From positions 310,001 through 374,000 of the forward strand of contig JAETOO010000001.1 of NCBI GenBank assembly GCA_021771715.1: 64,000 bases of DNA, read 5' to 3'. Below, piece after piece: positions 766 through 52,959 of this stretch; within the stretch, counting starts at the first letter, position 1; each line of letters opens with the position of its first letter. The notes beneath the pieces are model-generated. The model was not told the origin of the DNA. It saw nothing but the letters and a program-made list of their open reading frames with translations, and made no database searches. Made by a program: the position numbers and the translations under genes. Source of the DNA: Oscillospiraceae bacterium. Its GTDB lineage: Bacteria; Bacillota; Clostridia; Lachnospirales; Lachnospiraceae.

Positions 766-1112
766 ATGTCTGTGCCCCTCGTTCCTGTCCGCCCAACGTC
801 CGTGCCTCCCGTTCCTGTCCATTCAACGTCCGTTTTTCTCGTTTTTGTCCATCCAACGTCCGTACCTCTCGTTCCTGTCCACTCAACGTCCGTTTCTCTC
901 GTTTTTGTCCATCCAACATCCGTACCTCTCGTTCCTGTCCACTCAACGTCCGTTTCTCTCGTTTCTGTCCATCCAACGTCCGTACCTCTTGTTCCTGTCC
1001 ACTCAACGTCTGTTTCTTTCGTTTCTATCCATCCACGTCCGTACCTCTCGTTCCTGTCCATCCAACGTCCGTTTCTCTCGTTTCTATCCATCCAACGTCT
1101 GTTTCTCCCGTT
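766..1112. repeat. 30-nt tandem repeat array between the SpoIIE-like gene and tilS
   Basis: About 11-12 copies of a 30-nt unit (forward reading close to CGTTCCTGTCCATCCAACGT plus a C/T-rich ten bases), with a second-order 60-nt period because alternate units differ in the same way. One unit near 1031-1037 lacks one A, which breaks the reading frame. All three minus frames are largely free of stops inside the array. One of them joins tilS in frame and reads as repeats of TLDGQKRE / TLSGQERE. Another gives an ORF at 759-1217 that starts just after the SpoIIE-like stop. There are no unique spacers, so it is not a CRISPR array. Confidence 0.9.
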
Positions 1113-1227
1113 TCTCCTTCTCCACGCTCTGTATCTCCCGCACTCTCCTATGTATCTCTCCACTGCCCTCATGCTTCCGCTCATCGCATCTGCAGCTCTC
1201 ACCTTTTCCGCGGGCAATTCTCTATTC

Positions 1228-2709
1228 TCACTTCTTCCACACTCTCCCGATCAGTATCGTCATGTCATCCCGCGCATTCATCTTCTGCAGCAGATAGACG
1301 CGCTCCATCAGGCGCTGCGCGTGCTCCTTCGCGTTTGGCGTCTCGGTGCGCCGGATCAGCTCGATCATCTGCTCCTCGCGGCCCTCCTCCGGCAGCGCCT
1401 CCAGCACGCCGTCCGTCATCATGATAATCGTGTCCGACTCCCCGAGCTGCCGGTGCATGCTCTCATAGTCCGAGCGCTGCATCACACCCACCGGCATCGC
1501 CCCGGGCCGGATCACCTCGACCGTGTCCCCGTGCTTTAAAAACGTCGCCGCCGCCCCCGACTTGATCAGGTCACATCTCGCCGTGTACAGATCCACCATG
1601 CACAGGTCAATCGTCGAGAACATCTGGTCCTGGCTCTGCAGCAGCATGCAGGAGTTGATCATCCGCACAGCCGTCTCCTGCGGAAACCCCGCCTCGAGAA
1701 ACTGCTCCAGAAGCTCGATCACTTTCTCACTCTCCCGGCACGCCCCGACTCCAGAGCCCATCCCGTCCGCCAGGCTCATCACGACCTGCCCGGTCTCCTT
1801 CTGCAAAAACGCAAAATTATCCCCGGACACCAGCTCCCCGCTCTTTGTGATCCGCGAGATGCCGCAGAGCATCTGATAGCGCGTCTCAGGCACGAAATGA
1901 AAACTCCCCGGATCCTCACTGACCACCGCCCTGCAGTTCCACGCCGGCCTCATTTTCTCCCCGCAGCACTCCGTGAGAATCTCCGCGACCGTCTTCACCG
2001 ACACGCAGACCTTCTTCACCGGGCGCAGCGCCAGAAAAATCTCCGTGCGCTCCTCGTCGCAGACAAACACGCGCAGCCCGTCCAGCGCGAGGCCGAGATA
2101 CCGAAGCTCCCGCGGCAGCTTCCTCTGAAGCACCTGCTCACACTCCGGCGAGCTGACAAAGCCCTCCGCGGCGCGGTGCAGCAGCTCCGCTGTCTGGTAA
2201 ATCTGCTCCCCCGCCGCCATGCGCTGCTCCATCATCCGGTTGTTCCACAGCAGCCGGACGCGCGCCTGATGGTAGGCGGCTGCCAGCGCCCCGGCCACCT
2301 CCGCCGGCCTGCGACAAAACGGCTCCAGACTGCCGAAGCTCTCCTGCGAAATCTCCCCGTCATACTCCAGGTCGCGGGCGAGCCCGTACAGCGTCCGGCA
2401 GCTCTGAAAATAATAATTTTCCCAGCAGCTCTGCTCCCGGCCGCAGCCCGCGCACACCGTTTGCCGCACCTCCTCGAAGAGCTGCTCCATATCCTCATCG
2501 CCAAGGCGCTCCTTCTGACAGGGCATGTCCTGAAACAGCTTTGCGAGACCGTAAAACGCCTCCGCATACTTCTCGATCTGCTCCTTTGCCGGGAGCGGAT
2601 ACAGCCATCCGTCAGCCTGTCTCCGGCGCCTCTCCTCCCGTCTCGTCTGCCTGTACGCTATCCATTCCTCTCCTGCCTGAATCACTGCTCCAAACCCTTC
2701 GCTCATCAT
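1228..2709 (-). CDS. SpoIIE-family PP2C-type phosphatase without membrane domain
   Basis: A Ser/Thr phosphatase of the SpoIIE family, about 493 residues. In sporulating Firmicutes SpoIIE dephosphorylates SpoIIAA and so activates sigma-F. Visible are a cysteine cluster near residues 86-95 (CAGCG...CW), the SGDNF motif near 295, and the PP2C metal-binding motif DGMGSG near 315-320, followed by GAMPVGV and a late MMTDGV. Canonical SpoIIE is about 800 residues with some ten N-terminal membrane helices; here the protein begins soluble. The start at 2709 (or the next codon, 2706) is set by AGGGGAGG just upstream; the open frame extends to 2865 without a ribosome-binding site. A TATAAT lies at 2740-2745. 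The position between divIC and tilS matches spoIIE, so it is either a shortened SpoIIE or a paralogue in its place. Confidence 0.85.
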   Translation of the reverse strand: MMSEGFGAVIQAGEEWIAYRQTRREERRRRQADGWLYPLPAKEQIEKYAEAFYGLAKLFQDMPCQKERLGDEDMEQLFEEVRQTVCAGCGREQSCWENYYFQSCRTLYGLARDLEYDGEISQESFGSLEPFCRRPAEVAGALAAAYHQARVRLLWNNRMMEQRMAAGEQIYQTAELLHRAAEGFVSSPECEQVLQRKLPRELRYLGLALDGLRVFVCDEERTEIFLALRPVKKVCVSVKTVAEILTECCGEKMRPAWNCRAVVSEDPGSFHFVPETRYQMLCGISRITKSGELVSGDNFAFLQKETGQVVMSLADGMGSGVGACRESEKVIELLEQFLEAGFPQETAVRMINSCMLLQSQDQMFSTIDLCMVDLYTARCDLIKSGAAATFLKHGDTVEVIRPGAMPVGVMQRSDYESMHRQLGESDTIIMMTDGVLEALPEEGREEQMIELIRRTETPNAKEHAQRLMERVYLLQKMNARDDMTILIGRVWKK

Positions 2710-9388: not shown

Positions 9389-9498
9389 ATGTCTGCTGCC
9401 GTCAAATATACATACATGTGCGTCTGCCTGGCTTATCACTCACATGTCTGCCGCCGTCAAATATACATACATGTGCGTCTGCCTGGCTTATCACTCAC
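9389..9498. repeat. 55-nt tandem duplication at the 3' end of the HAD gene
   Basis: Two directly adjacent 55-nt copies (9389-9443 and 9444-9498) differ at a single visible position (CTGCTGCC against CTGCCGCC). The second copy includes the TGA stop of the HAD gene (9495-9497), so the first carries a duplicate of that stop region. The unit length is not a multiple of three. Confidence 0.95.
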
Positions 9499-10148
9499 GC
9501 GAGCAAGCATCTCGTAAGCTCTTCTACATCCTCACAGATCGCATCCGCTCCCGCGGCCTCGAGCTCCTCGCGGCTGCCGTACCCGTAGAGGACTCCGACG
9601 CAGGGCAGCCCGTTCTCCTTCGCTCCCAGAACGTCGTGCTCACGGTCTCCGATCATGACCATCTCCCCGGCGTGCTCCCGTCCGACCTGTCTCAGAACCA
9701 GGTCGATCACCTGCCCTTTGCTCGTGATCTTCTCATCCAGCGTGCTGCCGACGATCCAGTCAAAGTACGGCGCGATGCCGAAGTGCTCCGCGATCCGCAT
9801 TGCAAACGGCTCAGGCTTCGAGGTCGCAACGATCAAATGCTTCCCCGCCTGCCTAAGAGCCGCCAGCAGTTCCGGGATCCCGTCGTAGACACGGTTCTCG
9901 CACCAGCCTCGGTCTGTGAAGTACTCGCGGTAATCCGCGATCGCCGCCATCCCCTCCTCGCGCGTCATCCCGTAATACCGGTGAAACGACTCCAGCAGCG
10001 GCGGCCCGACAAACGGCAGCAGCCGCTCGCGCTCCGGCACCGCGATCCCGCGCTTTCTCAGCGCATGCGCCACCGAGTTCACAATCCCGTCCGCGGAATC
10101 GGTCAGCGTTCCGTCGAGGTCAAACAAAATGTACGGATAGTTCTGCAT
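9495..10148 (-). CDS. HAD-family phosphatase, PGP/Gph-like
   Basis: A cytoplasmic phosphatase of about 217 residues with the HAD motifs FDLDGTLTDS (nucleophile Asp10, general acid Asp12), ATSKPE (motif II), the conserved Lys in DEKITSKGQV, and GDREHDVLGAKENG (motif IV). The cap-domain layout resembles phosphoglycolate phosphatases and PpaX, so the substrate is not certain. The ATG at 10148 is chosen for its strong AAGGAGATCACT; an in-frame ATG at 10178 overlaps the stop of the upstream DUF4276-like gene (TAATG). The GC-rich coding contrasts with the AT-richer module just upstream, so that module may have been inserted directly ahead of this gene. Confidence 0.88.
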   Translation of the reverse strand: MQNYPYILFDLDGTLTDSADGIVNSVAHALRKRGIAVPERERLLPFVGPPLLESFHRYYGMTREEGMAAIADYREYFTDRGWCENRVYDGIPELLAALRQAGKHLIVATSKPEPFAMRIAEHFGIAPYFDWIVGSTLDEKITSKGQVIDLVLRQVGREHAGEMVMIGDREHDVLGAKENGLPCVGVLYGYGSREELEAAGADAICEDVEELTRCLLA

Positions 10149-10177
10149 AGTGATCTCCTTCTCATGTTTGGTTTCCA

Positions 10178-10843
10178 TTACGCGGAAAGTCGTTTCTCAA
10201 TTTCTCCGATAAAATACTGATAACTCGGTGAAGCATTCTCATGCAAATTCAGACATTGGCCGATCTTATCTGCCCATTCGCACTTTGCCTTCGCAATCTC
10301 TTTATAATTACCATCTGCTTTTTTTCTGAGATTTGACAGCCCTTTTGGATATACTATTTCTGCTAAAGCCTGCCATGTATCACAGATGCCATCCTGTTCG
10401 TATCTCTTTATAAATTGTATTCTCGCATTCGGATAAGCCGCTTTGATTGCTTCCACATCTCCCAGAAGCCATGCTTCCATTTCCTTAACTGCTATGCAAA
10501 AGGTATAATCACACAGCACCAGATTAGCAAGCGCAACCTGCTCCAACTCTCTTTTAAACTGCTCCGTATCTCTTTTATCATTATCCAGAACAATTACGAG
10601 CGTCGCGTTCTCCATACTCTGTAATACTTTACTAAATGCCTTCATATAAAGAGGCAAATCATTCAGTAGTTTTCCTGTTTTTCTCTGTAATACATTCCCT
10701 TTCTTTTGCAAATGGCCAATTCCACCAAATGCTTTCACGTTCCACTCAATGCAGTCCTCGATGTGCTGATTTCTCACTTTTTCCATAACGTGATTCACCA
10801 AAATACTTGTTGACTGATCCTCTATCAGAAATTGGAAATACAT
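10178..10843 (-). CDS. DUF4276-family, TOPRIM-like partner of an ATPase
   Basis: A protein of 221 residues. I recognise the DUF4276 pattern: an N-terminal acidic strand motif FLIEDQSTS (Glu8), a central VIVLDNDKRD (Asp87 and Asp89), and then IAVKEMEAWLLGD (Glu121, Glu123, Trp125). Spacing of a Glu followed by DxD resembles the TOPRIM metal site of OLD-, AbiL- and PARIS-type effectors. Nuclease activity is an inference. The gene starts directly at the stop of the ATPase gene (TAGATG), so the two are co-translated. It is AT-richer than both sides, which suggests transfer. Likely the effector of a two-gene defence module. Confidence 0.7.
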   Translation of the reverse strand: MYFQFLIEDQSTSILVNHVMEKVRNQHIEDCIEWNVKAFGGIGHLQKKGNVLQRKTGKLLNDLPLYMKAFSKVLQSMENATLVIVLDNDKRDTEQFKRELEQVALANLVLCDYTFCIAVKEMEAWLLGDVEAIKAAYPNARIQFIKRYEQDGICDTWQALAEIVYPKGLSNLRKKADGNYKEIAKAKCEWADKIGQCLNLHENASPSYQYFIGEIEKRLSA

Positions 10844-12076
10844 CTATTCCTCCGTGCTTTCAAAATATTTGCTGTACCACATATCACCGATCGTAACTCC
10901 TTCCTCTGCCAACTCTTTGACGAAGGTATATTCCGAAGCTCTTTTGACGCTGGAGTAACCATCCGCCCCCTTCGTCAGCACCCACACATCATCTGGACCC
11001 AGTGAGTTTACAAAAAAGGGGCTGTGAGTTGTAACAAAAAGCTGTTTTGAAAACCCTTTGCCCACATTTTCTCTCATTTCTTCAGCCAATTCTCCTAAAT
11101 AATGATGATACAATCCATTTTCAGGCTCTTCTATAAACACCAGTTGCCTTGGATTTTTTTCGTGAAGTAGTAAATAGTAGGCAAAAAGCTTCAACGTTCC
11201 ATCCGACATTCTCTGAGAATAGAACGGCTGTGTAAAACCTTGCTCATAAAAACGCAGCATCATCTGCCCATTTTCGAATCTCTGTGGTTCAATTTTTTCT
11301 ATTCCCGGAAGTTTCGACTGAATTTCCGCTAACACTTTTTCAAAATCTTTTCGGTTCTCGCGGTACATATATTGTGCAACATTATTAATGTTACTCCCAA
11401 TTCTATCCAGATATGCCTGCGGCGCCGCCGTCTGCAATCTTCTCGCCGCGTCAGGCGAAAAATAGCAAAGGTACCAGCTTCTCAAAAAATTCAGAAATTT
11501 TTCGATACGATCATATTGTTTCATAGCTCCTAAAGTCACAATAGCCGGACGGCGCACATCTGAGAGTTGAACTTCTATTTTCTTTCCGGTAATACTTCCA
11601 TCATCATCCTGCCCACCATCGTCATTTCCTTCAAACGCATATCCACTTCCATTCTGCAAATACATGAAAGAACGAGGCCATCCATGCTTTTCCAGGCGCT
11701 GCCGTAACCGCTCCATCTTTACATATGGACGACCGGATTGATCCAGATCAATCTCCAATTCATAAGTAATAGGACGTGTGTTACTCGACTCACGGTAATA
11801 CAACTCAAATCGAATCGGCTCCGTTGCGCCCTGCGAAACTAATCGTTCAAATCCACCACGATTATTTGAATCACAGGCAGCCTCCACACCTATCTCTAGG
11901 CAATCCGCGATAAATCCAAAGGCATCTGCCAGCGTACTTTTTCCATTTCCGCTAGGTCCGATAATGGCAACTAAATTGCCAAGCACCCGCTCATTTTGAC
12001 GGGTCCTCGTCTTCCCCAGTACAATATGTTTTAACACCCCATAATTTTGAATTTCAATTCCTTCTATTTTCCCCAT
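10844..12076 (-). CDS. AAA/ABC-type ATPase of a putative defence module
   Basis: About 410 residues in the SMC/OLD-like ATPase class. Walker A GPSGNGKST is at about 40-48, an ABC-signature-like RMSDGTLKL comes before Walker B LVFIEEPENGLYHHYL, and the switch-like TTHSPFFVNS follows. The insertion between Walker A and the signature is about 230 residues with a short helical segment, not a long SMC coiled coil. The start at 12076 has GGAGAGGG just upstream; the frame opens to 12139 without a site. It is followed at once by a DUF4276-type gene. This pairing is like AbiL (ATPase plus RloB) and PARIS (AriA/AriB) but is not assignable to either by eye. Confidence 0.8.
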   Translation of the reverse strand: MGKIEGIEIQNYGVLKHIVLGKTRTRQNERVLGNLVAIIGPSGNGKSTLADAFGFIADCLEIGVEAACDSNNRGGFERLVSQGATEPIRFELYYRESSNTRPITYELEIDLDQSGRPYVKMERLRQRLEKHGWPRSFMYLQNGSGYAFEGNDDGGQDDDGSITGKKIEVQLSDVRRPAIVTLGAMKQYDRIEKFLNFLRSWYLCYFSPDAARRLQTAAPQAYLDRIGSNINNVAQYMYRENRKDFEKVLAEIQSKLPGIEKIEPQRFENGQMMLRFYEQGFTQPFYSQRMSDGTLKLFAYYLLLHEKNPRQLVFIEEPENGLYHHYLGELAEEMRENVGKGFSKQLFVTTHSPFFVNSLGPDDVWVLTKGADGYSSVKRASEYTFVKELAEEGVTIGDMWYSKYFESTEE

Positions 12077-12110
12077 ATCCCTCTCCGCTTTCAAGTTTTC
12101 TTCTTTTTCT

Positions 12111-12139
12111 ATCATAGCATGTAGGCTTAAAAATGGCAA
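12111..12139 (-). promoter_or_regulatory. Promoter of the ATPase/DUF4276 module
   Basis: On the minus strand TTGCCA (12134-12139), a 17-nt spacer, and TATGAT (12111-12116), about 35 nt upstream of the ATPase start codon. Confidence 0.55.
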
Positions 12140-14375: not shown

Positions 14376-14611
14376 GTTCTTACACCCCCCACTCGGCACA
14401 CTTGTCTGCGTCCACTTACCCCATCAGACGTACTACTCTCAACACATCCGGCTGCTTCGTCGGCCATGCAATGCGCATTACTTCCGGCTGCTTCGGCAGC
14501 CATACAATGCGCATCACTTCCAGCTGCTTCGGCGGCCATGCAATGCGCATCACTTCCGGCTGCTTCGACAATCATGCAATGCACATCATTTCCGGCTGCT
14601 TTAGCTAGCAT
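14372..14611 (-). CDS. Possible small ORF made of 12-residue repeats, coupled to the permease
   Basis: A 79-residue frame made mostly of a 12-residue repeat (AEAAGSDAHCMA and variants), running from just after the solute-binding protein stop to a TGA that overlaps the ATG of the MalF-like permease (ATGA). The overlap and the unit of exactly 36 nt are what one expects of a translated coupler. Against it, no good ribosome-binding site precedes 14611, the product has no recognised domain, and several frames of such arrays are open. Treat as a hypothesis. Confidence 0.35.
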   Translation of the reverse strand: MLAKAAGNDVHCMIVEAAGSDAHCMAAEAAGSDAHCMAAEAAGSNAHCMADEAAGCVESSTSDGVSGRRQVCRVGGVRT

Positions 14612-14627
14612 ACAATGCGCATCGCTT
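14448..14627. repeat. 36-nt x 5 tandem repeat
   Basis: Exactly 180 bp, five 36-nt units with a forward consensus starting CCGGCTGCTTCGGC and ending AATGCGCATCACTT. Units differ at a few positions each. It fills the gap between a solute-binding protein gene and its permease genes. Confidence 0.95.
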
Positions 14628-14631
14628 CCGC

Positions 14632-15972
14632 TTACTCCGTGAGATAAATTTTCACATACTCTTCAAACTCTGCTAGGCAATCCTCATAGTCCGCATCCCC
14701 GGCATAGAACGGTTCCATTGCGCTGAAAAATTTCTGTGCGGTCAGGTCGCTCAGAAAAATACTTCCATCCGGCTCGGTCAGCATTCTCTTATATTCTTCC
14801 AGAAACTCTGCGCCTGGCTCACCGATTTCCAGCATCTCCCTGCCGCCCTCCATCACCTCGCTCAGATTCTCCTCGATCGCCGCCTCCAGAGCCGCCCGCT
14901 GCACCGGGATATAGGACGTGTAGGAAGCCAGTGTACTCTGCATTTCCTCCCGCAAAAACAGGCGGAGCATATTCCACGCATTCTGCTTATTCTCACTGTT
15001 GGCCCGTATTCCCGCGTACAGCCGGACCTCCGCCAGAAGCTTTCCGCCGGAAGTACGGAACGGCAGGATGACAGGCGTATCCTGCGCCGCAATGGCGGCA
15101 GCCGCACTCAAGTAACCCTCCATTGCAATGGGAACCGCGACATACGCCCTGCGCTCCAGGATATCCTTCCCGTACCCATAATACCGAAACTCTCCAAAGA
15201 CGTTATCCAGCTCCTCCTCGTACATCCGGCAGTAGGCAGTGCACGCTTCCTGCAGCACGGCCTGATCCACGCCGATCTCGCCGTCCTCATAGTTCAGGAA
15301 CGAGTCTCCCAGATGCTGCGGGAAAGACATCAGCTGTGCGCCGTCGGCCAGAATCCGATCGCTGTAATCTGCGTCGTACAGCGCGGCGATTTCCTTGAGC
15401 ACGGAGACCGTATCGGTACACGCGCCAAGGTCAAAGCCGATTTCTTCCAGTCCCTCCCGCGAGGCGATTCCAAGCCGGAGATCGTAGTTCAGAGGCATCA
15501 CGTACTGTGTTCCGTCGAACCGTCCGCCCTCCACCACAGGCATCACGTAGGACGCTTCCTCCCATCCGTTTTCCGGTGTCATGAACGCATCCAGAGGTGC
15601 AAACACACCCGCCGCCAGCAGCTTGTAGACGTCATCCGTCCCCCAGCTGTTGAATAGCAGGAGGTCCGGGCCGCCGCCGGCCATCAGCTCCGTCTTCATT
15701 CTGACCGGATCCGCCATCATCTCATCCATGCTGTAGGTGATCACGTTCAGCTCCACCTCCGGCCATGTCTGCCTGAACTCTTCCAGCGCCTTCGCGTAGA
15801 TGTAGTGTTCCTGCTCCTCACTCATATACAGCGTGAGGCTGCTGTTCTCATCCGCCTTCACCGTGTGCCCGCCTGCTGCCGCCAGCAGCACAGCCCCGAG
15901 CGCCAGACACGCACCCGCTTTTCTTCCCATTCTGCGCCTTATCTGTTCCATCTGATTTCTCATTCCTCTCAT
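14632..15972 (-). CDS. Extracellular solute-binding protein (CUT1-like)
   Basis: About 446 residues, with an export signal (basic start, then ACLALGAVLLAAAGG) and a likely signal peptidase cleavage near HTVKADE. No lipobox cysteine is evident, which is unusual for a binding protein of a Gram-positive cell. The mature part has family landmarks: SLTLYMSEEQEHYIYAKALE, GGGPDLLLFNSWGTDDVYKL, GTQYVMPLNYDLRLGI, and YVAVPIAMEGYLSAA. It is the third of three consecutive binding-protein-like genes and the one nearest the permeases. The ATG at 15972 fits GGAGGG best; ATGs at 15981 and 15963 are alternatives. Confidence 0.85.
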   Translation of the reverse strand: MRGMRNQMEQIRRRMGRKAGACLALGAVLLAAAGGHTVKADENSSLTLYMSEEQEHYIYAKALEEFRQTWPEVELNVITYSMDEMMADPVRMKTELMAGGGPDLLLFNSWGTDDVYKLLAAGVFAPLDAFMTPENGWEEASYVMPVVEGGRFDGTQYVMPLNYDLRLGIASREGLEEIGFDLGACTDTVSVLKEIAALYDADYSDRILADGAQLMSFPQHLGDSFLNYEDGEIGVDQAVLQEACTAYCRMYEEELDNVFGEFRYYGYGKDILERRAYVAVPIAMEGYLSAAAAIAAQDTPVILPFRTSGGKLLAEVRLYAGIRANSENKQNAWNMLRLFLREEMQSTLASYTSYIPVQRAALEAAIEENLSEVMEGGREMLEIGEPGAEFLEEYKRMLTEPDGSIFLSDLTAQKFFSAMEPFYAGDADYEDCLAEFEEYVKIYLTE

Positions 15973-16034
15973 TTTCCTCATCCCTCCGGCCCTTTTCTTA
16001 TCTGACAGCCCCGTCCATTTTCACCCGTAGCTCC

Positions 16035-18110
16035 TCACTTTGCTTCGCCCGGCAAGTATCCCATCTGTTCCATCGCATCCGCATACGTCTCATGCCCGAG
16101 TGCTGCCGCACAGAATCCAAAGGCCTCCTCTTTCAAAGTGGAACTCTCTGAAATCACAAATACAGACGTATCGCCGCTCTCCTCCTCGGTTCCGTAGGCC
16201 AGTCCTCTGTCTTTTTCGAGCACTTTGACAACGGGAAGCGGTTTCTCTGTGCTCTGCAGATACGGCGTCAGATCTGCGTAGCATTCCCCCAGCGGCGCAC
16301 CGTCAAAATCCATCTCCAGCACTTCCTTGACCCCCAGGAAAATATCCGCCCCGGCATCTACCATCTCCATTTTTTTCGCATCCACCACCGCGGAGTTGTG
16401 CGCAGTATCCCTCGAAATCAGCTGTACATGCAGATGCTCATTGGAATACGATTTTGCCGCAGCCGCCAGCCACTGATAGAGCGGATAGTCCTCTCCCAGC
16501 CCCCAGTCACCATATGAAACCGTGAGCACCTGCTTCTCCGGCACATCTGCGTGTCCGTTTTCGTCTGAACACTGATTCCGAAATGCAGCGTCCGTCACCG
16601 CTTTCTGCGTGCACTCGCGGAAGGCTTTCGAGGCCTCGCCGGAAAGGGACAGGACGTCCTTTTCCTCGCCGCACAGCATTTTATAGGTGTATTCCGCCCA
16701 TACTGCCGAGGTCTTCAGCTGATTTTTCCAGCATCTTGTGACACCGGATGCCGGGAAATCATCTGTCAGGTATATGGACCCGTCTCCGCTCACATAATTG
16801 CCCTGAAATGCGCGCAGAAGCGCAGTCGCTTCCGCAGGATAGCGCGTGTTTGCATTGACCGCCACAGACTGGGTAATCATCGCGCGCACTGCTCCATCCC
16901 GGGACGGGATGCTGAAAAACACCAGATCCTTCTCGTCCTCAAACAGTGCCATGTTCTGCGCAGCCTTTGACTTGTTCGTGAGCATGCATCCGCTGAGCAT
17001 GCTCACTCCCGACGAGAGTGCTTCGTAAGGGGCAAAAAAGCTGCTGCTGTCACCTGACCTTTGGCGCGTTTCCGCCAGAAGCGTCTGCAGCCGGTCCGTT
17101 TCCCCTTCCCCTGCCGCATCCTCTCCGTGATTCTCCTCCTGCTCCGCGTCAGCCATGCGATTTTCTCCCTGCTCAGCATTCTCCGTCTGATCTCCGCGTT
17201 GTCCGGCACAGCACGCCTCGATCCAATCTACATCGGCCGCGTTTTCAAAAATCGTCTTTCCGGTCGCATCGGCTGCCTCCTGAAAAGCTTCCAGAAATGC
17301 ATCCAGGCTCTCATAGCTCTGCTCTGTGTCAATCCCGGCCGCTTCCAGCGTATCCCGCAGCCCGAACACGGCAGGGCACTGGATATAGACCGGCAGCACA
17401 TACTGCCTGCCGTCCACCTGCCCGGCCTCCAGCGTTCCCGGCAGATAGCTCAGCTTGCCGACCACGTACGTCTCGACGTTCCCGATCTCCGCCAGATACC
17501 CGGATTCCATCAGGTACTCCGGGCTGACTCCGTTCGCCTCGTCCATAAAGATCAGATCCGGGCCGCCACCGCCGTCCAGCTCGCGCAGCAACTCCTCCTC
17601 AAACTGCTCCGGCGTCAGATAACTCTTGTCGACAAGCCGCCACGTCAATTCCGGAAAATACTCCTCATAGCCCGGCATGTCAGAGCCGAACGCATAGCTG
17701 TACAGCGCCTCCCGCACAACTGCCTCACTGTCTGCATCCAACCAAATCGTAATCTCCGGCACCGCATCCGCTTCCGATGCAGTCTCCTCTATTACTTCTG
17801 GCACTGTCGCCTCTGCTGTTTCTGATGCAGTTCCTTCTATTGCTCCTGACACTGCCGCCTCTGCCGTTTCCGACGCAGTCTCCTCTATTACTTCTGACAC
17901 TGCCATCTCTGACGCTTCCGATGCCGTCCTCTCTATTGCTTCTGACACTGCTGCCTCTGCTGTTTCCGACGCAGTCTCCTCTATCACTTCCGACTCTGCC
18001 ACTTCCGATATAATTTCCGCTCTCGCTTCCACCTCTGCTACCGCCGCGCCGTCGAACACCCCCGCGGCCAAGCCGACTCCCAAGCATGCCGCCAACCATT
18101 TTCTTCTCAT
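16035..18110 (-). CDS. Large solute-binding-like exported protein with N-terminal repeat region
   Basis: A 691-residue protein. After the signal sequence (WLAACLGVGLAAGVFDGAA) comes an acidic 16-residue repeat (SEVIEETASETAEAAV, about five copies, residues 33-112), then a binding-protein-like domain (PEITIWLDADSEAVVREALY, GGGPDLIFMDEANGVSPEYL, GRQYVLPVYIQCPAVFGLRD). A second, shorter binding-like segment begins near VLTVSYGDWGLGEDYPLYQW and contains ADIFLGVKEVLEMDFDGAPL. The following 686-residue neighbour has the same two-part plan, so the two genes are probably paralogues. There is no lipobox. It may be a receptor-type partner for the ECF pair rather than a transport protein. Confidence 0.7.
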   Translation of the reverse strand: MRRKWLAACLGVGLAAGVFDGAAVAEVEARAEIISEVAESEVIEETASETAEAAVSEAIERTASEASEMAVSEVIEETASETAEAAVSGAIEGTASETAEATVPEVIEETASEADAVPEITIWLDADSEAVVREALYSYAFGSDMPGYEEYFPELTWRLVDKSYLTPEQFEEELLRELDGGGGPDLIFMDEANGVSPEYLMESGYLAEIGNVETYVVGKLSYLPGTLEAGQVDGRQYVLPVYIQCPAVFGLRDTLEAAGIDTEQSYESLDAFLEAFQEAADATGKTIFENAADVDWIEACCAGQRGDQTENAEQGENRMADAEQEENHGEDAAGEGETDRLQTLLAETRQRSGDSSSFFAPYEALSSGVSMLSGCMLTNKSKAAQNMALFEDEKDLVFFSIPSRDGAVRAMITQSVAVNANTRYPAEATALLRAFQGNYVSGDGSIYLTDDFPASGVTRCWKNQLKTSAVWAEYTYKMLCGEEKDVLSLSGEASKAFRECTQKAVTDAAFRNQCSDENGHADVPEKQVLTVSYGDWGLGEDYPLYQWLAAAAKSYSNEHLHVQLISRDTAHNSAVVDAKKMEMVDAGADIFLGVKEVLEMDFDGAPLGECYADLTPYLQSTEKPLPVVKVLEKDRGLAYGTEEESGDTSVFVISESSTLKEEAFGFCAAALGHETYADAMEQMGYLPGEAK
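17773..18012. repeat. 48-nt x 5 in-gene tandem repeat
   Basis: Codes for the acidic 16-residue repeats near the N-terminus of the 691-residue binding-like protein. The unit is a multiple of three, so copy number can change without a frameshift. Confidence 0.9.
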
Positions 18111-18260
18111 TCCATCTAAACCCTCCTTTTTATTCTCACAAGCAGTGCTCCGGCTGCCATGCTCACATCAGCATCTGACAACTGCCGCATAAGTTGCTGA
18201 GTGCCGGCAACACACATTTAGCACCAGCCAAATCGAAACGTAGCCCACACATCCCGCTGC

Positions 18261-20321
18261 TCACGGTAAACTATCTGATTTCTCTCCCGCCTCGCGCATC
18301 AGAACCGGCTCCTCTCCGATACGTGCTGCCATTTTTTCGTATTCATCCCTGCTCAGGCACAATCTGATAAATTCCAGCGCCTCCTCGGGGAGCTCTGTCT
18401 TTGCGGAGACGATAAAGCCGCTGACCAGCGTCGTCTCCTCCAGGTACGGGATGTGCATCAGCGCGCTCTGTTCCCCGGCCTCCAGGGCGCCCTCTTTCCA
18501 CGCAAGCCCGGACAGCCCGCTCTCATCCAGGAGCGGCCGGTAATCCAGCACATGCTCTGCCGTATCCTCATAGCCCAGCCAGACCACCGTCCGGTAGAGC
18601 ACCGTGATATCGGCGGCGGTATCCATCAGCAGCAGTCTCTCATACCACTCATCCGTCTCTCCTCTGCACACCTCCACATGGATTCCGTGCTCTGCCTCAA
18701 ACTCCTCCGCCGCCCCGATAATCCATTCATACAAAGGCCCTTCCTCGCCCAGGCCGTCGTCCGGCACCATCACACTCAAGGCCTTTTCGCTGCCTGTCCC
18801 GGCACACTCACCCTCCGACACCGAAGAGCGCTCGCTGCACGACGTCTCCAGCAGCGGAACATACTCGCTGCACGACGTCTCCGACACCGGAACGTACTCG
18901 CCGCACGACGTCTCCGACACCGGAACGTGCTCACTGCACGACGTCTCCGACACCGGAACCTGCCCACCGCACGATGTCTCCGGCAGCGGAAAGTTCCCGC
19001 AGTATGACGTCTCCACAAGCTTCGACGTCACCTTTGCATACCTCCATCCGGCGTTGTTCCCCAGGGAATTTGTCTCCTGCCACCCGAACGGTACCAGGGA
19101 AACCGCCTGCTCGATCAGACCTGTCCAGTCATATGCTTTTGCCACCGGCAGGTTCACCGCGCAGTTGTGCTGGCGCTTCTGGAAAAACGCGTTCAGCGCC
19201 GCATACGCTGCCTCCAGGTTGGAGGAATGTCTGTTGACCGCCACGGCCTGCCGCAGCACCGCCTGCATTTGGCCGTCCAGCCGCCGAAGCGGGAGAAAGA
19301 CGACCGTTTCCTCCTCCGGCAGCATCGCGGCCTGCACCGCCATACGCCGGTAGTCCCGGATACCGGCTGTCAGAAACAAACACGTTCCCGCCGCAGAGTC
19401 CTCGCCGGCCTGCAGGCTGCTCTTTGCTGTCCCTCTGACATCGCTGCCGTCTTCCGCAAAGTCTTCTTCTGCTTGCCTGCCGTCTTCCACAGAACCTTCT
19501 TCTGCCTGCTTGCCGTCTCCCGCAAAGCCTTCTCCTGTCCGCCTGTCGTCCTCCTCTTCAGAACGATTCTGCCCGGACACTCCCGCCTTCAATGCTTCCA
19601 CATCCGCCCGCAGCTCCTCGCTCCAGTCCGCCTCGTCCCCGATGTACTGCTCCAGCCGCTCAAGAAAATCGCAGGAATCAAACGGGCTCTCCCCGGTCTG
19701 TTCCTGATACGCCGCGGCCACCTCAAACAGCCGCTCGATGTCCCACAGTTCCTCCTCCGTGACTCCCGCCTGCGCGAGCCGCTCCTGCGTCGTGACCAGC
19801 ACCGGAAGGTCGACAGACACCGGAATCAGGTACTGCTCTCCATCCATCTGCCCCGACTCTAAAATGCCCTCGCAAAAATCCGAGGCTGTGTACACGCTCT
19901 TCCCGCTCTCCAGCCATCCGTCCAGGCCAGCGAGATATCCCTGCTCCACAAATTCCGCCGGATCCTCACAGCTATACGCATCCAGAAATACGAGATCCGG
20001 CCCCTTTCCCTCCTGCAGCTCCGAGCGGAGCTGGCTGCGATACTCCTCCGCCGAGAGGGCGCTCTTATCCACCAGGTTCCAGTTCACAAGCGGATAGTTG
20101 TCCTCCTCACCCGAGTACTGTGCGACCTCGCTCAGATTTTTGTACATCGCGACCATCGCCCGGACATACATCTGGTTCTCCCGGTCCAGGTAAACCGTGA
20201 TCTCCGGCACGCCCTTTTCCCCGGGACGGCGCATTCTGACAGCCGCTGCCGCCGCCAAAACAAGCAGCAAACCAGTGACCAGGAGGAACACGCCTCTCTT
20301 CCTTCTCTTTCTCCGTCTCAT
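18261..20321 (-). CDS. Large solute-binding-like protein with two internal repeat tracts
   Basis: A 686-residue protein. The N-terminal basic stretch RRRKRRKRG is followed by a single hydrophobic helix (VFLLVTGLLLVLAAAAAV), which may be an uncleaved anchor. Then a binding-like domain (PEITVYLDRENQMYVRAMVA, GKGPDLVFLDAYSCEDPAEF, GEQYLIPVSVDLPVLVTTQE), an 11-residue repeat tract (QAEEGSVEDGR-like), more of the domain, a 12-residue Cys-containing repeat tract (PVSETSCSEYV) and a second binding-like segment (LSVMVPDDGLGEEGPLYEWI). It shares this plan with the next gene. It follows the anti-sigma-like gene by 15 nt, pointing to shared control. Confidence 0.7.
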   Translation of the reverse strand: MRRRKRRKRGVFLLVTGLLLVLAAAAAVRMRRPGEKGVPEITVYLDRENQMYVRAMVAMYKNLSEVAQYSGEEDNYPLVNWNLVDKSALSAEEYRSQLRSELQEGKGPDLVFLDAYSCEDPAEFVEQGYLAGLDGWLESGKSVYTASDFCEGILESGQMDGEQYLIPVSVDLPVLVTTQERLAQAGVTEEELWDIERLFEVAAAYQEQTGESPFDSCDFLERLEQYIGDEADWSEELRADVEALKAGVSGQNRSEEEDDRRTGEGFAGDGKQAEEGSVEDGRQAEEDFAEDGSDVRGTAKSSLQAGEDSAAGTCLFLTAGIRDYRRMAVQAAMLPEEETVVFLPLRRLDGQMQAVLRQAVAVNRHSSNLEAAYAALNAFFQKRQHNCAVNLPVAKAYDWTGLIEQAVSLVPFGWQETNSLGNNAGWRYAKVTSKLVETSYCGNFPLPETSCGGQVPVSETSCSEHVPVSETSCGEYVPVSETSCSEYVPLLETSCSERSSVSEGECAGTGSEKALSVMVPDDGLGEEGPLYEWIIGAAEEFEAEHGIHVEVCRGETDEWYERLLLMDTAADITVLYRTVVWLGYEDTAEHVLDYRPLLDESGLSGLAWKEGALEAGEQSALMHIPYLEETTLVSGFIVSAKTELPEEALEFIRLCLSRDEYEKMAARIGEEPVLMREAGEKSDSLP
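18836..19015. repeat. 36-nt x 5 in-gene tandem repeat (Cys-containing)
   Basis: Codes for 12-residue units of the type PVSETSCSEYV, one cysteine each, in the 686-residue binding-like protein. Units are near-identical (forward core GCACGACGTCTCCGACACCG). Confidence 0.9.
19444..19545. repeat. 33-nt x 3 in-gene tandem repeat
   Basis: A second, more diverged array in the same gene, coding for FAGDGKQAEEG / SVEDGRQAEED / FAEDG units of 11 residues. Edges are approximate. Confidence 0.65.
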
Positions 20322-21045: not shown

Positions 21046-21531
21046 CTACTCTAAAATCCGGCGAAGCGCTTTCCGCGTCCGCGACAGCCTGCTCTTGACC
21101 GTACCTATAGGCTCCTCCAGAAGCTCTGCGATCTCCCGGAGCTTGTAGCCCTCCAGGTGGAACAGCAGGAGCGCCAGCCGGTCCTTCTCGCCAAGGCCCT
21201 TCAGCGCATTCCACAGATCGACATCCGGCGGCTTGAAGTCCTCCGACACCTCCCAGTCCTCCTGCGGAATCTGCCTGCTGCCCTGCTTTGCATAGTCAAA
21301 GCACTCATTTTGCAGAATTTTCAGCATCCACACCCGGAATTTCCGCGGGTCCCGCAAATGCTCCAGATTTTCATACGCCTTTAAAATCGCGTTCGCCGTC
21401 GCGTCCTCCGCATCCCACTCGTTGTGCAAAATCGACAGCGCGACATAAAACATTGTACTTTTCATCGACTGCACCTGCTCTGTGAACCAGGTGCCATCCT
21501 TCTTTTTTCCCAACATAATCCGTCCCTGCAT
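21046..21531 (-). CDS. ECF-type RNA polymerase sigma factor
   Basis: A sigma-70 family factor of about 161 residues. Region 2 is at about 20-75 (MFYVALSILHNEWDAEDATANAILKAYENL then FRVWMLKILQNECFDYAK). Region 4 is at about 105-160 (GLGEKDRLALLLFHLEGYKLREIAELLEEPIGTVKSRLSRTRKALRRIL). The start at 21531 is fixed by AGGAGAGAA; the longer frame to 21618 has none. It heads a same-strand run with the anti-sigma-like protein and three binding-like proteins, so it probably controls itself and perhaps this run. Confidence 0.9.
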   Translation of the reverse strand: MQGRIMLGKKKDGTWFTEQVQSMKSTMFYVALSILHNEWDAEDATANAILKAYENLEHLRDPRKFRVWMLKILQNECFDYAKQGSRQIPQEDWEVSEDFKPPDVDLWNALKGLGEKDRLALLLFHLEGYKLREIAELLEEPIGTVKSRLSRTRKALRRILE

Positions 21532-21546
21532 TTCTCTCCTATATAA

Positions 21547-21577: not shown

Positions 21578-21724
21578 AGGAAAACATTAAAATTTTTCTT
21601 GACTTTTTTCATCAGCATCGTATAATTAGGTAATAATTGTTGCGCAACACACGTTTCTTTTTCGGTCGCATACTCTTACGCCGCAGAGAATTGCATGCGC
21701 CCGGTACATCCGAACGACAGAAAA

Positions 21725-33386: not shown

Positions 33387-33400
33387 AAAGTTCTCCATTA
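33365..33400. other. Dyad overlapping the ROK repressor stop
   Basis: TAATGGAGAGCTTTC and GAAAGTTCTCCATTA form a long stem, extended by flanking T and A runs. It covers the 3' end of the repressor gene. It is likely part of the transcription end region with the tandem hairpins that follow. Confidence 0.6.
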
Positions 33401-33421
33401 AAAAATACTCCGCGTTTTTCC

Positions 33422-33573
33422 CGTTGAGCAGACTCGAAAAAATGCTTCGCATTTTCCCTCGTTGAGCAGACTCTAGAAAATGCTCTGCATTTTCCCTCGT
33501 TGAGCAGACTCAAAAAAATGCTTCGCATTTTCTATCGTTGAGCAGACTCGAAAAAATGCTCCGCATTTTTCCT
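33422..33573. repeat. 38-nt x 4 tandem repeat, each unit a small hairpin
   Basis: Four 38-nt units start CGTTGAGCAGACTC, each holding AAAATGC-ttc-GCATTTT or a variant with the stem kept (for example TGCTCTGCA, TGCTCCGCA). They lie between two converging genes. Just after them a strong dyad TGAGATCTGAGAAG...CTTCTCAGATCTCA (about 33576-33608) covers the stop of the ABC exporter gene. Confidence 0.9.
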
Positions 33574-33599
33574 CGTTGAGATCTGAGAAGCTGCGCTTC

Positions 33600-37773: not shown

Positions 37774-37883
37774 GAAATTTTTTTCTTTTTTCAGTTACAA
37801 CTCAGGTACAACTTCCATCTGGACGCCGCATCTGAAACGTGCTAGTATCGACTTATTACTATACACAGAAGGGAAGGATTCTG

Positions 37884-38498
37884 ATGAACGTATCAAAAAA
37901 ACTTGTCTCCTGCATGTTAGGCGTCGCTCTGGTGTGTCAGCCGATTTTTTTTAACGGCGCGGACTCTTTGTCGATGGTAGCGGAAGCGCATTCGAGCCAT
38001 CACGCAGACAGCCATCACAGCGGCAGCTCCGCAGGCAGTTATGATCCCTACTATTACTGCAATGGACACGAAGCGCATTTACATGACGGAGGTGTGTGCC
38101 CGTACGCTGACAGTTCCGATTCTTATTATTACTGCGATGGACACGAGGCGCACCTGCATGACGGAGGTGTGTGTCCGTACGCTTCCACGGTAAGTACCGA
38201 TCCGGAAGCCTACGCGGGCGGGGCCGCACAGGACGCCGTGTCCTCCCGGAACAGCGTCCTGGATACGTCTGGCAAGTCTGTCGAGCTGAGCACCGGCGAT
38301 ACGATCGCTCTGTCCAGAGATCTGATCCGCATCGTCCAGGACACCTTGAACCAGAAGGGGTATGACTGCGGAGATCCTGACGGAATGGTCGGGGCAAAGA
38401 CAAAAGAAGCCATCGCCGACTACCTGGCGGAAGCGGATGACGCGGATACGGACTCCCTGATTATCGCTATGGTTGCGAAAGGATTAGGGCTCCAGTAA
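37884..38498 (+). CDS. Exported protein with YHYH-like repeats and a peptidoglycan-binding domain
   Basis: A protein of 204 residues. Signal sequence about 1-35 (SKKLVSCMLGVALVCQPIFF); a His/Ser-rich stretch 36-55; two 25-residue repeats with YYYCNGHEAHLHDGGVCPY (56-74) and its near-copy (81-99), a Cys/His pattern known from YHYH-type exported proteins and probably metal-binding; then IRIVQDTLNQKGYDCGDPDG and GAKTKEAIADYL, the fold of PG_binding_1. It would sit in the cell wall. The start at 37884 has GGGAAGG; earlier in-frame ATGs have none. Confidence 0.75.
   Translation: MNVSKKLVSCMLGVALVCQPIFFNGADSLSMVAEAHSSHHADSHHSGSSAGSYDPYYYCNGHEAHLHDGGVCPYADSSDSYYYCDGHEAHLHDGGVCPYASTVSTDPEAYAGGAAQDAVSSRNSVLDTSGKSVELSTGDTIALSRDLIRIVQDTLNQKGYDCGDPDGMVGAKTKEAIADYLAEADDADTDSLIIAMVAKGLGLQ
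38049..38183. repeat. 75-nt in-gene repeat (two copies)
   Basis: Codes for the two Cys/His repeats of the exported protein, with a unit of 25 residues. The copies differ at few positions (Asn/Asp after the first Cys). Confidence 0.85.
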
Positions 38499-46366: not shown

Positions 46367-47428
46367 TCACTCCCGAATTGCCTGGCGGTTGATCTTGGAG
46401 GCCAGGACTCCCGCCCCAAAACCATTGTCGATATTCACGACGCTGACGCCGCTCGCGCAGGAGTTCAGCATCGAGAGCAGCGCGGCGAGGCCGCCGAAGT
46501 TCGCGCCGTAGCCGACGCTCGTGGGCACACCGATCACCGGGCAGGCGACGAGGCCGCCGATCACGCTGACGAGCGCTCCCTCCATGCCGGCGACCGCCAC
46601 CACCACGTTCGCATCCTCGAAGAGCGTCAGCTTGTTCAGCAGCCGGTGGATCCCGGCCACGCCGACATCATAGACGCGCTCCACATAGTTGCCGTAGAGC
46701 TCCGCAGTGATCGCAGCCTCCTCCGCGACCGGCAGATCGCTCGTCCCCGCCGCGATCACCGCGATCTTTCCCTTTTTCTCGACTTCACAGCCATTCACGA
46801 TGCCGATGCGGGACACCGGGTCGTAGGTCATGCTGACTTTCCGTCCCATAGGAAAACGACCACTGTCTCCTGCCTGTCCTGCCGCAGACGTCTCTGTCTT
46901 GTCTGCCCGCTCCACCGCAGACATCTCTGCCTTGCCTGCCTGCTCTGCCGCAGACATATCTGCCTTGCCTGCCCGCTCCGCCGCAGACATCTCTGCCTTG
47001 CCTGCCTGCTCCGCCGCAGACATCTCTGCCTTGCCTGCCTGCTCCGCCGCAGACATCTCTGCCTTGCCTGCCTGCTCTGCCGCAGACATATCTGCCTTGC
47101 CTGCCTGCTCCGCCGTGCCTACCAGTATACGCACTCCAAGTCCCTCTGCGACTGCGTCCGCCTTCTCTCTTGACAGACGGGTGATCAGAATATTCCGGAT
47201 GTCCTTCTCCGCCATCGCCGACGCGATGCCGACAATCTGCTCCGCCGTCTTTCCTTCGCCATAGATCACCTCCGGCATGCCCTGCCGCATGTGGCGGTGC
47301 AGGTCAATGTCCGCATAATTTCCTACCAGCATGTCCGGCTGCAGGCTCACATCCTCCAGCGCCTCCCGGGCGCTCACCGTGCCCGCCTCCACCTTCTTCA
47401 GCAATTCATAGAGCTCTACCCGCTCCAT
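46367..47428 (-). CDS. larB: LarB-type NCAIR-mutase-like protein with a repeat insertion
   Basis: LarB carboxylates and hydrolyses NaAD in the synthesis of the nickel-pincer nucleotide cofactor. The C-terminal PurE-like domain is intact: [78 protein letters not shown]. The N-terminal region ([20 protein letters not shown]) is also normal. Between them, after RILVGT, come about eight 11-residue repeats ([11 protein letters not shown]), so the protein is about 353 residues, against about 250 in relatives. larC and larE are not nearby. The start at 47428 has AAGGGAAG. Confidence 0.88.
46868..47115. repeat. 33-nt in-gene tandem repeat in larB (about 7.5 copies)
   Basis: Units read forward as GCCGCAGACATCTCTGCCTT plus 13 further bases, differing at few positions. 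It codes for an Ala/Glu/Lys-rich, likely helical insertion. Confidence 0.93.
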
Positions 47429-47504
47429 ATTGCACACTTCCCTTCTTTCTGCACTCAGCTGCCCTTTCGCATTTATCCGGTACATTCCATCTGTCAGGCG
47501 CAGC

Positions 47505-50773: not shown

Positions 50774-50856
50774 ATCGCACCTTTTCCCTTCTCTTTTTCC
50801 CCCACAGCATTGCTTTTGCCGCCTCGCTCCGCAGAACTGCGCTACCCGCCTGCCCT

Positions 50857-52959
50857 CTACTCTTCCTCCGTCACCTCGACCATCTTCTTCCCTTCCGTCA
50901 GGTGGAAGAAATCATAGACCTGCTGCGCGCTGCGCAGGTTCATGGACTCGGCGCCTGCGAGCTCCTCGAGGGAAGCGTCGCGGATGGCCTCGAGCGACTT
51001 GAAGGTGCGCATCAGCGCCTTGCGGCGGGCTGGGCCGATGCCCTCGATGTCGTCGAGAATCGAGTGCACCTGCCCCTTGCTGCGCAAACTTCTGTGGTAC
51101 TCGATCGCAAAGCGGTGCGCCTCGTCCTGAATCCGCGTGATCAGCTTGAAGCCCTCGGAGCGCGTGTCGATCGGCACCTCCACGTTGTCGTGGTAGAGAC
51201 CGCGCGTCCGGTGAAAGTCGTCCTTGACCATCCCACAGACCGGGATCGAGAGCCCCAGCGCGTCCAGCACGCGCAGACACACATTCACCTGCCCGCGCCC
51301 GCCGTCCATCAGAATCAGGTCCGGGAAACGGCTGAAGCTGCCCATCTCATAGCCCATCCCCTTCTCGTCCAGCTCCTTCTGCTCTGCCAGCCCGTGCGTG
51401 AAGCGGCGCGTGAGCACCTCCTCCATGCTCGCATAGTCGTCCGGCCCCTGCACGGACTTGATCTTAAACTTCCGGTAATCGCTGCGCTTCGGCTTTCCTT
51501 TTTCATAGACAATCATCGAGCCGACGGACTCGAACCCGCTGATATTCGAGATATCGTACGCCTCCATGCGCACCACGCGCCCGACGCCGATCAGCTCCTC
51601 GATCTCGCGCACCGCGCCGATCGTCCGGCCCTCCTCGCGCTTGATCCGCTCGCGGTCTTGCCGCAGCACGATCTGGGCATTTTCGCGCGCCATCTCGACC
51701 AGCTTCTCCTTCGTCCCCTTTTTCGGAATCCGCACATAGACTCTCTGGCCGCGCTTCTCCGTCAGCCATTTCTCGACCAGCTCGTGATCCTCGATCTCCG
51801 TCTCGAGCATCAGCTCCTTGGGGACAAACGGCGTGCCCGCATAATACTGCTTCACAAAGCTGTTCAGAATGACGGCCTTCGTGTCCTGCAGCGCGACGCG
51901 CAGGAAGAAATGCTCCCGTCCGATCATCCTGCCTCCGCGGATAAAGAACACCTGCACGACGGCATCCGCGTTCGCCACCGTGTCATCCGCATCGTCCAGT
52001 GCGAGCGCGATCACATCCTTGTCCTCCCCGTCCCCGTGCGTGATCTTCTGGCGTTGCGCCACCTGCTGCACGCTGCGGATCAGATTGCGGTACTCGATCG
52101 CCTTCTCAAAATCCAGCTCCTCCGACGCCTGCTCCATCTTCTCCGTGAGCATCGCGAGCACCGGCGCGTGGTTGCCGTTCAGAAAGTCCACCGCCTCCTC
52201 AATCGAGCGGCGGTACTCTTCCTTTGTAAATGTCCCCTGGCACGGCGCATTGCACTGCCCGATGTGGTAGTACAGGCACGGGCGCTCCTTCCCGATATCG
52301 CGCGGCAGGTTTTTGCTGCAGCTGCGCAGCTTGTAGAGCTTCTTCACCAGGTCAATCGTGTCCTTGACGGCTAACCCGCTCGTGTAGGGCCCAAAATAGC
52401 GCGACTTATCCTTTTTCATCGTCCGCGAGAGCAGCACCCGCGGGTACTCCTCGCCCAGCGTCACCTTGATAAACGGGTACGTCTTGTCGTCCTTGAGCAT
52501 TGTGTTGTATTTCGGGCGGTGCTCCTTGATCAGATTGCACTCCAGCACGAGCGCCTCGAGCTCCGAGTCGGTCACGATGTACTCGAACCGCCGGATCCGC
52601 TCGACCATCTGTATGATCTTCGGACTCTTGCCCCGGCTGCTCTGAAAATACTGCCGCACCCGGTTCTTCAGGCTGATCGCCTTCCCCACGTAGATAATGT
52701 CGTCATGCGCGTCGTGCATGATATAGACACCGGGGCGTCCCGGGAGCTTTTTCAATTCCTCTTCTATATTAAATGCGATGTAGCCCTCCTGCAACTGTGC
52801 AGGCGGCTTCCCGGCCACCGCACCTTGCTCGCATGGCTCAGACTCAGTGCGCTGCTCGCACGGCTCAGGCTCAGCACACTGCTCACGCGCTACAGACCGG
52901 CTCGCCTCCGCCGCTTCCTTCTCAATATCCTTCATGCTACGCTCTTCCTCCCCGGTCAT
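50857..52959 (-). CDS. uvrC: Excinuclease ABC subunit C with an N-terminal extension
   Basis: UvrC makes both incisions in nucleotide excision repair. The GIY-YIG domain ([30 protein letters not shown]), the UVR motif, the RNase H-like domain and the C-terminal helix-hairpin-helix ([20 protein letters not shown]) are all present. Relatives start near [12 protein letters not shown]; here about 60 residues precede it, with a 9-residue repeat ([18 protein letters not shown]). An AGGAGGG lies inside the gene four bases before an ATC codon at 52779-52777, where relatives would have their ATG. ATGs at 52959 and 52935 are the visible starts. Confidence 0.93.
52831..52890. repeat. 27-nt diverged repeat in the uvrC N-terminal extension
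   Basis: Codes for two to three units of the kind E-x-EPCEQ. The copies are diverged, and the edges are approximate. Confidence 0.55.

Follow-up and report, generated by a model that had tools for sequence, protein, structure and literature searches.

We examined a 64,000-nt stretch of DNA from an Oscillospiraceae bacterium (Lachnospiraceae in the GTDB lineage; GenBank assembly GCA_021771715.1), hereafter the window, in which tandem-repeat arrays lie both within genes and between them. The window corresponds to positions 310001-374000 of contig 31 of the host genome, which comprises 4.18 Mb in 54 contigs and is 97.7% complete. Arrays were called with Tandem Repeats Finder (TRF) at a period of at least 20 nt, those with a score of at least 150 being designated strong. 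Genes were called with our own simple caller supplemented by long open frames, and the class of each array relative to genes depends on these calls. TRF returned 18 rows for the window, which reduce to 12 non-overlapping arrays. The initial annotation had listed eleven arrays and spoken of at least ten; ten of the eleven are called by TRF close to where they had been placed, and the eleventh, a 75-nt repeat at 38049-38183, is real though without a TRF call. Two weak arrays, at 10538 and 31788, come in addition to that list.

Five of the listed arrays lie outside genes or at the end of one. The first (755-1112) has about 12 copies of 30/60-nt units and is intergenic, between the end of a SpoIIE-like gene (minus strand, stop at 1228; Pfam) and the next called gene. 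The second (9389-9498, minus strand), two copies of a 55-nt unit that match at 98% and are therefore regarded as young, had been placed between genes; with our gene calls it shares 4 nt with the end of a HAD-hydrolase gene (9495-10178, minus strand; Pfam HAD_2). Next to this array, an AAA ATPase gene (10178-12139), which matches the MADS3 defence ATPase and TIGR04435 below the cut-off, is followed by a 221-aa gene; the two form a candidate defence pair. An intergenic array of 5.2 36-nt units (14443-14630, minus strand) begins 1 nt past the stop of a solute-binding-protein gene (14632-15981, minus strand; Pfam SBP). Between divergent genes for a sigma-factor-like protein (21046-21618, minus strand) and a TetR-like protein (21992-22576, plus strand) lies an intergenic array of 4.7 53/54-nt units (21731-21980), and between convergent genes a minus-strand array of 4.8 38-nt terminator-like hairpin units (33400-33580), which belongs to a small dispersed family. 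The weak array at 31788 is the single one in a stretch (24001-32000) of mannosidase-like, sugar ABC transporter and ROK genes, where G+C is 0.45-0.47 against 0.51-0.61 in most other 4-kb bins (one more is at 0.47).

The other listed arrays lie within reading frames. Three solute-binding-protein genes are adjacent at 14632-20321: two, of about 690 aa, carry internal arrays, and the third has its array just past the stop. In the open frame 16035-18110 (minus strand), 48/96-nt units (17768-18002) encode an E/A/T/S-rich spacer after a signal-like N-terminal segment; this array spans a start codon only with the start chosen by our caller (17804), the longer reading frame placing it inside the gene. 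The second of the long genes (18261-20321, minus strand) holds two arrays, at 18813-19014 and at 19444-19554 (33-nt units, 3.4 copies). The unit of the first, listed as 36 nt at 18836-19015, is in fact 33 nt (66/99). Among the 39 relatives of the genus, the best match of the 686-aa solute-binding protein beyond the host genome is 51% identical. The repeat missed by TRF (38040-38189, plus strand; 58 of 71 positions match at an offset of 75) encodes YYC(N/D)GHEAHLHDGGVCPYA twice between 38049 and 38183, and the secreted-looking protein that carries both copies of this motif, YYCxGHEAHLHDGGVCPYA (37839-38498), also has a borderline peptidoglycan-binding domain. In the minus-strand gene 46367-47485, 7.5 copies of a 33-nt (11-aa) unit (46869-47115) encode a linker preceding the domain that Pfam matches as AIRC; we take this protein to be LarB-like. 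Finally, 2.2 copies of a 27-nt unit (52826-52884) encode part of an N-terminal extension of UvrC (50857-52959, minus strand; Pfam). An ATG stands at codon 9 of this frame, with GGGGAGGAAG upstream, and in most relatives the alignment does not start before about residue 43-63. The nearest UvrC match among named genomes is 89% identical, and the best matches are Lachnospiraceae metagenome-assembled genomes, which suggests this family for the host.

Beyond the window, 803,831 bp of the host genome were analysed, giving a sample of 867,831 bp (21% of the genome). It contains 126 arrays, which make up 2.05% of its length at a density of 14.5 per 100 kb; 75 of them are strong (8.6 per 100 kb). An order-2 Markov counterpart of this sample has 6 arrays. 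The arrays are thus, as in minisatellites, head-to-tail units of tens of nucleotides in numbers beyond chance. Periods range from 22 to 95 nt (5th to 95th percentile), with a median of 39. Scarcity outside the window would have spoken against the notion of a process copying unrelated local sequences in tandem; instead, 114 arrays in 804 kb (14.2 per 100 kb), one of them CRISPR-like, extend that notion across the sampled chromosome, and extrapolation from 125 arrays in 868 kb gives about 600 for the whole genome. The CRISPR-like candidate (contig 31, about 80484-80855), with a repeat containing CGCCCCTCGCGGGGCG at a spacing of about 67 nt, is the exception among the arrays inspected, whose units are otherwise contiguous; it is counted among the 126 but excluded from the later counts, hence n = 125. 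Among the strong host arrays the median TRF match is 87%, and 8 of 74 reach at least 95%, which indicates that most arrays are not recent and a few are. Since copies differ among themselves in nearly all arrays, assembly artefacts are an unlikely source.

The arrays are not spread evenly with respect to genes, their density being 33.0 per 100 kb outside genes and 8.9 per 100 kb inside. The period is divisible by three in 58 of 60 in-gene arrays, 15 of 37 intergenic ones (the CRISPR-like array included), 6 of 22 at gene edges and 6 of 7 in open frames upstream of a called gene. In-gene units thus keep the frame, as had been noted for the window; the arrays listed at 766-1112 and 14448-14627 have multiple-of-three units yet are intergenic with our gene calls. 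In pooled relatives the in-gene figure is 66 of 67. Nearly all gene-edge arrays overlap the 3' end of the gene. In the host sample 19 arrays extend across a stop codon by over 5 nt, against a single one that extends across a start codon (p = 4e-5), and in pooled relatives the corresponding numbers are 11 and 1 (p = 0.006). Thus, while a few arrays of the window do sit at gene starts as initially suggested (52826-52884, 17768-18002 and 21731-21980), in the genome sample it is gene ends that are crowded. In the stop-spanning arrays that were inspected, the first unit includes the last codons of the gene with its stop, and later units repeat these in the 3' flank; for one of them (locus L237, 15220) the matching gene end of a relative, G020, is single and without an array. 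Of the 49 arrays in co-directional spacers, 37 are located in the half adjoining the upstream stop. Per kilobase of spacer there are 0.52 arrays between convergent genes (8 arrays), 0.39 between co-directional genes (49) and 0.20 between divergent genes (6).

For comparison, 40 genomes of the genus were drawn, one per species (labelled G000, the host, and upwards), and a quick, midpoint-rooted tree of 36 of them was built from PolA, LarB-like and UvrC pieces. G018 and G020 group with the host genome (SH-aLRT 100). These sisters are poor in arrays: G018 has 5, one of them strong, in 149 kb (0.7 strong per 100 kb), and G020 has 4, again with one strong, in 176 kb (0.6 strong per 100 kb). At the host rate 27.6 strong arrays would be expected in both together and 2 were seen (Poisson 4e-10), so that the host exceeds its sisters about 5-fold for all arrays and 14-fold for strong ones. 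The more distant G003 (28 arrays, 13 strong, in 109 kb) and G012 (12 arrays, 5 strong, in 76 kb) are rich and others low, many relatives having been sampled at only 3-60 kb, which makes individual densities rough. The 39 genus relatives sampled around one gene gave 72 arrays, 24 strong, in 609 kb. With equal settings, 150 kb of E. coli K-12 gave 3 arrays, 1 strong, and 59 lower-ranked loci (L029-L087; Blautia, Robinsoniella, Eisenbergiella and unclassified relatives, L030 being possibly of the same genus as the host) gave 39 arrays, 14 strong, in 1,063 kb.

The best supported description of the arrays is that of bacterial minisatellites which originate in place at a lineage-specific high rate. 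We explain them by a lineage-specific bias towards tandem duplication, often assisted by microhomology, filtered by selection and mostly neutral in its products, with no dedicated system for varying proteins, and assign this explanation a probability of roughly 0.7.

An ordinary duplication rate could in principle lead to the same result if relaxed selection or drift let neutral copies pile up. The arrays do lie where harm should be least, and of the 31 orthologous co-directional pairs compared with G020, the host spacer is more than 20 nt longer in 23 and shorter in 3 (p = 0.0005); against G012 the excess is also significant (p = 0.005). However, host spacers are no longer than those of G018, and a 5- to 14-fold contrast between sisters would demand a large difference in the efficacy of selection. 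The terminal protein branch of the host (0.17) is no longer than those of its sisters (0.19 and 0.18), which makes both a general mutator and a strong relaxation of selection at the protein level unlikely. In-gene copies, moreover, bear a mark of selection: mismatches between neighbouring copies fall on codon positions 1, 2 and 3 in 238, 237 and 389 cases (p = 3e-12), whereas in non-coding arrays read in an arbitrary frame the counts are 121, 141 and 144 (p = 0.32). Altogether we consider relaxed selection an unlikely cause.

The third-position bias points to conservation of the encoded sequence, and we read it as purifying selection on putative disordered linkers. In translations of in-gene arrays the residues E, T, Q, G, A and S are over-represented and F, L, I, Y and W under-represented. 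The LarB-like protein shows the duplication process best. Its linker is in frame in all 36 genus genomes counted, host included, and ranges from 19 to 120 aa, while in G009, G019, G022 and G047, which are outside this count, the N-terminal flank was not found by the search. The repeats themselves differ, with units of 11 aa in the host, 12 aa in both G003 and G023 and 20 aa in G042, and the G023 unit copies EKAEQVRQGL, a local stretch that is single in G005, G016, G044 and G050. At one site in RecJ the gap between matched segments is 195 nt in the host against 63-90 nt in G003, G010, G017, G018 and G020, with 141 nt in G008, 147 nt in G055 and 264 nt in G042.

Such variable, in-frame linkers could be taken to mean that selection maintains the arrays as contingency loci, whose copy number alters proteins or their expression, and the initial annotation had indeed suggested that the arrays serve to vary proteins. 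A change in copy number at the 58 of 60 in-frame arrays would alter linker length and leave the protein intact, and the LarB-like linker does differ in length between species. Yet purifying selection would leave frame-keeping at any copy that is inserted, array density is about four times higher outside genes than inside, the codon bias speaks for conservation of the linkers, and a DNA-repair gene, uvrC, is among the carriers. Judged by frame and start codons, and leaving aside promoters near the 6 arrays in divergent spacers, switching of genes on and off by copy number, as in phase variation, does not fit in-gene periods that are nearly always multiples of three, with a single start-spanning array against 19 stop-spanning ones, and the nearest sisters are array-poor. 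The suggestion thus finds no support here, and we regard a dedicated variation system as quite improbable.

The initial annotation held the units to be unrelated and the arrays not to derive from one spreading repeat. BLAST comparison of the 125 arrays bears this out for 110 singletons, the other 15 falling into four similarity clusters, so that no single unit recurs at many unrelated places as in a dispersed satellite. One cluster is the family of the array at 33400-33580, the sole non-coding dispersed family, with 37-40-nt units that form an A/T-rich hairpin with a T-run and share the core AAAATGCGAAGCATTTTTTCGAGTCT. Its 21 motif matches (none for the reversed pattern) occupy five sites across the whole genome, of which four are tandem and one, on contig 5, is a single match. 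Besides the array of the window, members lie on contig 31 (308208-308459), contig 2 (39248-39313 and 43996-44244) and contig 5 (34331-34356), and a diverged one on contig 10 (24662-24693). The palindrome GAGAAGC...GCTTCTC adjoins 3 of the 5 sampled hairpin arrays and a different one a fourth. For the array at 33400-33580, short palindromic extragenic repeats were found at several places, as in REP/BIME elements; judged by its sequence the family is REP-like in appearance, and a dispersed element is the best reading of that array. A mobile or dispersed repeat of the REP/BIME or terminator kind is nevertheless untenable as a general explanation and very improbable as the generator of the arrays, as it covers only 5 of 125 arrays, stop-spanning units hold the gene's own codons, and there is no excess of RNA structure. 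A single spreading element was accordingly rejected outside the 37-40-nt family. Predicted RNA structure of arrays outside genes showed no excess over array-free spacers (54 vs 70 segments, p = 0.48), and an RNA-structure or terminator function for these arrays was rejected on that basis. An Rfam scan of the window at the gathering threshold gave no match.

The explanation we prefer, a lineage-specific duplication bias, raises the question of its cause. Tandem duplications of tens of nucleotides flanked by short direct repeats arise in FEN1/rad27-deficient yeast and in polA 5'-nuclease mutants. The host differs from these in that its PolA has the 5'-3' exonuclease domain (208.7 bits, in an open frame of 889 aa), so that simple loss is not the explanation. 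This domain was found in 36 of the 40 genus genomes, the other four being 65-82% complete. The polA 5'-nuclease domain, mutS, recJ, sbcD and xseA are present in the host and in both low-array sisters; recJ, sbcD and xseA were found in all 11 chosen genomes, and Ku in none of the 11. Loss of any of these six searched families was therefore rejected as the cause of the rate, although gene presence, as read from sequence, would not prove a normal gene product in the host or its sisters. Mismatch repair had been proposed for comparison with relatives, and mutS covers the full model in the host and is present in the sisters too. Some mutS match occurs in 40 of 40 genus genomes, above the family cut-off in 35; the five below it are G008, G009, G024, G043 and G044. 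In G008, a 98% complete genome, mutS may be missing or broken up; this genome has 10 arrays in 61 kb and is not unusually rich in strong ones, and its close relative G055, which is mutS-positive, is no lower. Nor does G+C correlate with strong-array density (Spearman 0.14, p = 0.55; 20 genomes with at least 30 kb each).

Two further observations concern the MutS family itself. In G001, G010, G013, G014, G015, G042, G046, G048, G051, G052 and G054, an insert interrupts a second match, which we presume to be MutS2-like, near model position 667/668. The MutS of G001, G014 and G048 has extra sequence near position 116-141.

We envisage the following sequence of events. A segment of some 20-140 nt would be copied where it lies into two head-to-tail units, in many cases with short direct repeats at its borders, in a manner that may resemble slipped-strand mispairing or template switching; the junctions are consistent with this. 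Units would then be gained or lost, as suggested by the periods of 30/60, 33/66/99 and 48/96 nt and by one clean case between two close species. Copies would survive where harm is small, a step that appears as a pattern in the data: across or after stop codons, where the first copy would still provide the end of the gene; within spacers; and, only when in frame, within linkers of disordered type, start-codon copies being nearly absent. Lastly, the process would differ between sister species, visible as the roughly 5-fold (all) and 14-fold (strong) contrast that comes with neither a longer protein branch nor loss of a tested repair gene.

Evidence on the first two steps was sought in the sequences of the host and its relatives. 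Among 38 young, two-copy-like arrays drawn from 343 scored, 25 have a junction repeat k of at least 4 nt beyond the unit, with a median of 7. Five pairs of close species yielded 35 flank-mapped array comparisons, some of which count one locus from both sides; 24 differ in length and 11 are equal. In the clean case G046 carries exactly one 33-nt unit more than G052, between flanks that are 92 and 95% identical, in an EF-G-like gene with a YacP domain.

Several observations weigh against the explanation and have to be set beside this evidence. The junction repeat is shorter than 4 nt in 13 of the 38 young duplications, including the 55-nt pair at 9389 in the window, where k = 0, and the measure is biased, the TRF threshold favouring k above zero at short periods and large k representing partial extra copies. 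Only 3 of the 24 length differences amount to whole units (1, 4 and -2 units, one of them exceeding the length of its own array); for the 21 fractional ones, either other indels contribute or flank mapping is imprecise. A clean whole-unit change is found at one locus only, and our confidence in the explanation is lowered for this reason. In pooled relatives the preference for the upstream stop in co-directional spacers does not reach significance (38 of 66, p = 0.27), and promoter-side spacers hold arrays too (6 in 53 divergent spacers). Of 83 arrays outside called genes in the relatives, 50 have multiple-of-three periods, probably because the borrowed codon model missed genes there, and with a simple gene caller the sole start-spanning array of the host (17768-18002) hinges on the chosen start. 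Finally, spacer length shows no significant excess over G018 or over G003; inflation of spacers as a general mark was therefore rejected.

Known repeat systems resemble the arrays in part. In the part of the SATFIND survey consulted (Subirana and Messeguer, 2019; PMC6749651), the densest bacterial replicon has 23.0 satellites per Mb with 5.5% of units above 30 nt, and 18 bacterial species exceed 4 per Mb. As described there, satellites share with the host arrays units above 30 nt, many being multiples of three in genes, and those of Clostridioides difficile are all unique and unrelated, as are nearly all host arrays; the same part makes no mention of a stop-codon bias. Our emulation of its rule, roughly re-implemented in another program, which makes comparison with the 23.0 per Mb approximate, gave 29 satellites in the 868 kb of the host (33 per Mb), 25 of them with units above 30 nt and one CRISPR-like. 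The same emulation gave no satellite in 150 kb of E. coli K-12 or in 176 kb of G020 and one in 149 kb of G018, whereas G003 had 6 in 100 kb, G012 had 2 in 76 kb and the loci L029-L087 had 4 in 1,063 kb.

The constant-length repeats of Bacillus, of 52 and 20-21 nt, reach 103 arrays per genome and, according to the sections consulted (PMC8161180, including Table 1), are only partly conserved between strains. Like the host arrays they are genome-wide in a Firmicute, patchy among species and variable in sequence; unlike them they have a constant length, with short signals in all repeats of a species, whereas the host arrays span 22-95 nt with no common size, neither 52 nor 20-21 nt. Variable-number tandem-repeat (VNTR) loci of pathogens such as Legionella, as far as the portion consulted describes them (PMC2639597), likewise place tandem units within genes; the host, represented here by one genome, differs in its extrapolated total of about 600 arrays. 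Among the matches listed in a literature search covering titles and the beginnings of abstracts, with subscription papers mostly outside its scope, we found neither such a Lachnospiraceae genome nor a repeat bias towards stop codons in bacteria.

Long-unit tandem repeats are few in most bacteria according to the published surveys, as far as these were consulted. Close species that lie 5- to 14-fold apart with similar protein branches therefore offer a natural experiment on the factor that controls short tandem duplication, and the sharp sister contrast, together with gene ends and linkers built from the gene's own DNA, makes a follow-up worthwhile. The case also shows how copying of local DNA can extend disordered linkers and the ends of genes, and some caution is advisable in genomes of this kind, where gene ends, linkers and spacers are hard to annotate or align. 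It is tempting to speculate, as a tentative idea that we hold with well under even confidence, that the sisters differ in a heritable mutator state for tandem duplication, in which some factor acting in replication or repair makes the in-place duplication of 20-140-nt segments several-fold to more than tenfold more frequent and protein change is not sped up. If so, gene ends, spacers and disordered linkers in such a lineage would lengthen steadily, and the bacterium would possess a built-in source of new linker sequence, as in the LarB-like protein.

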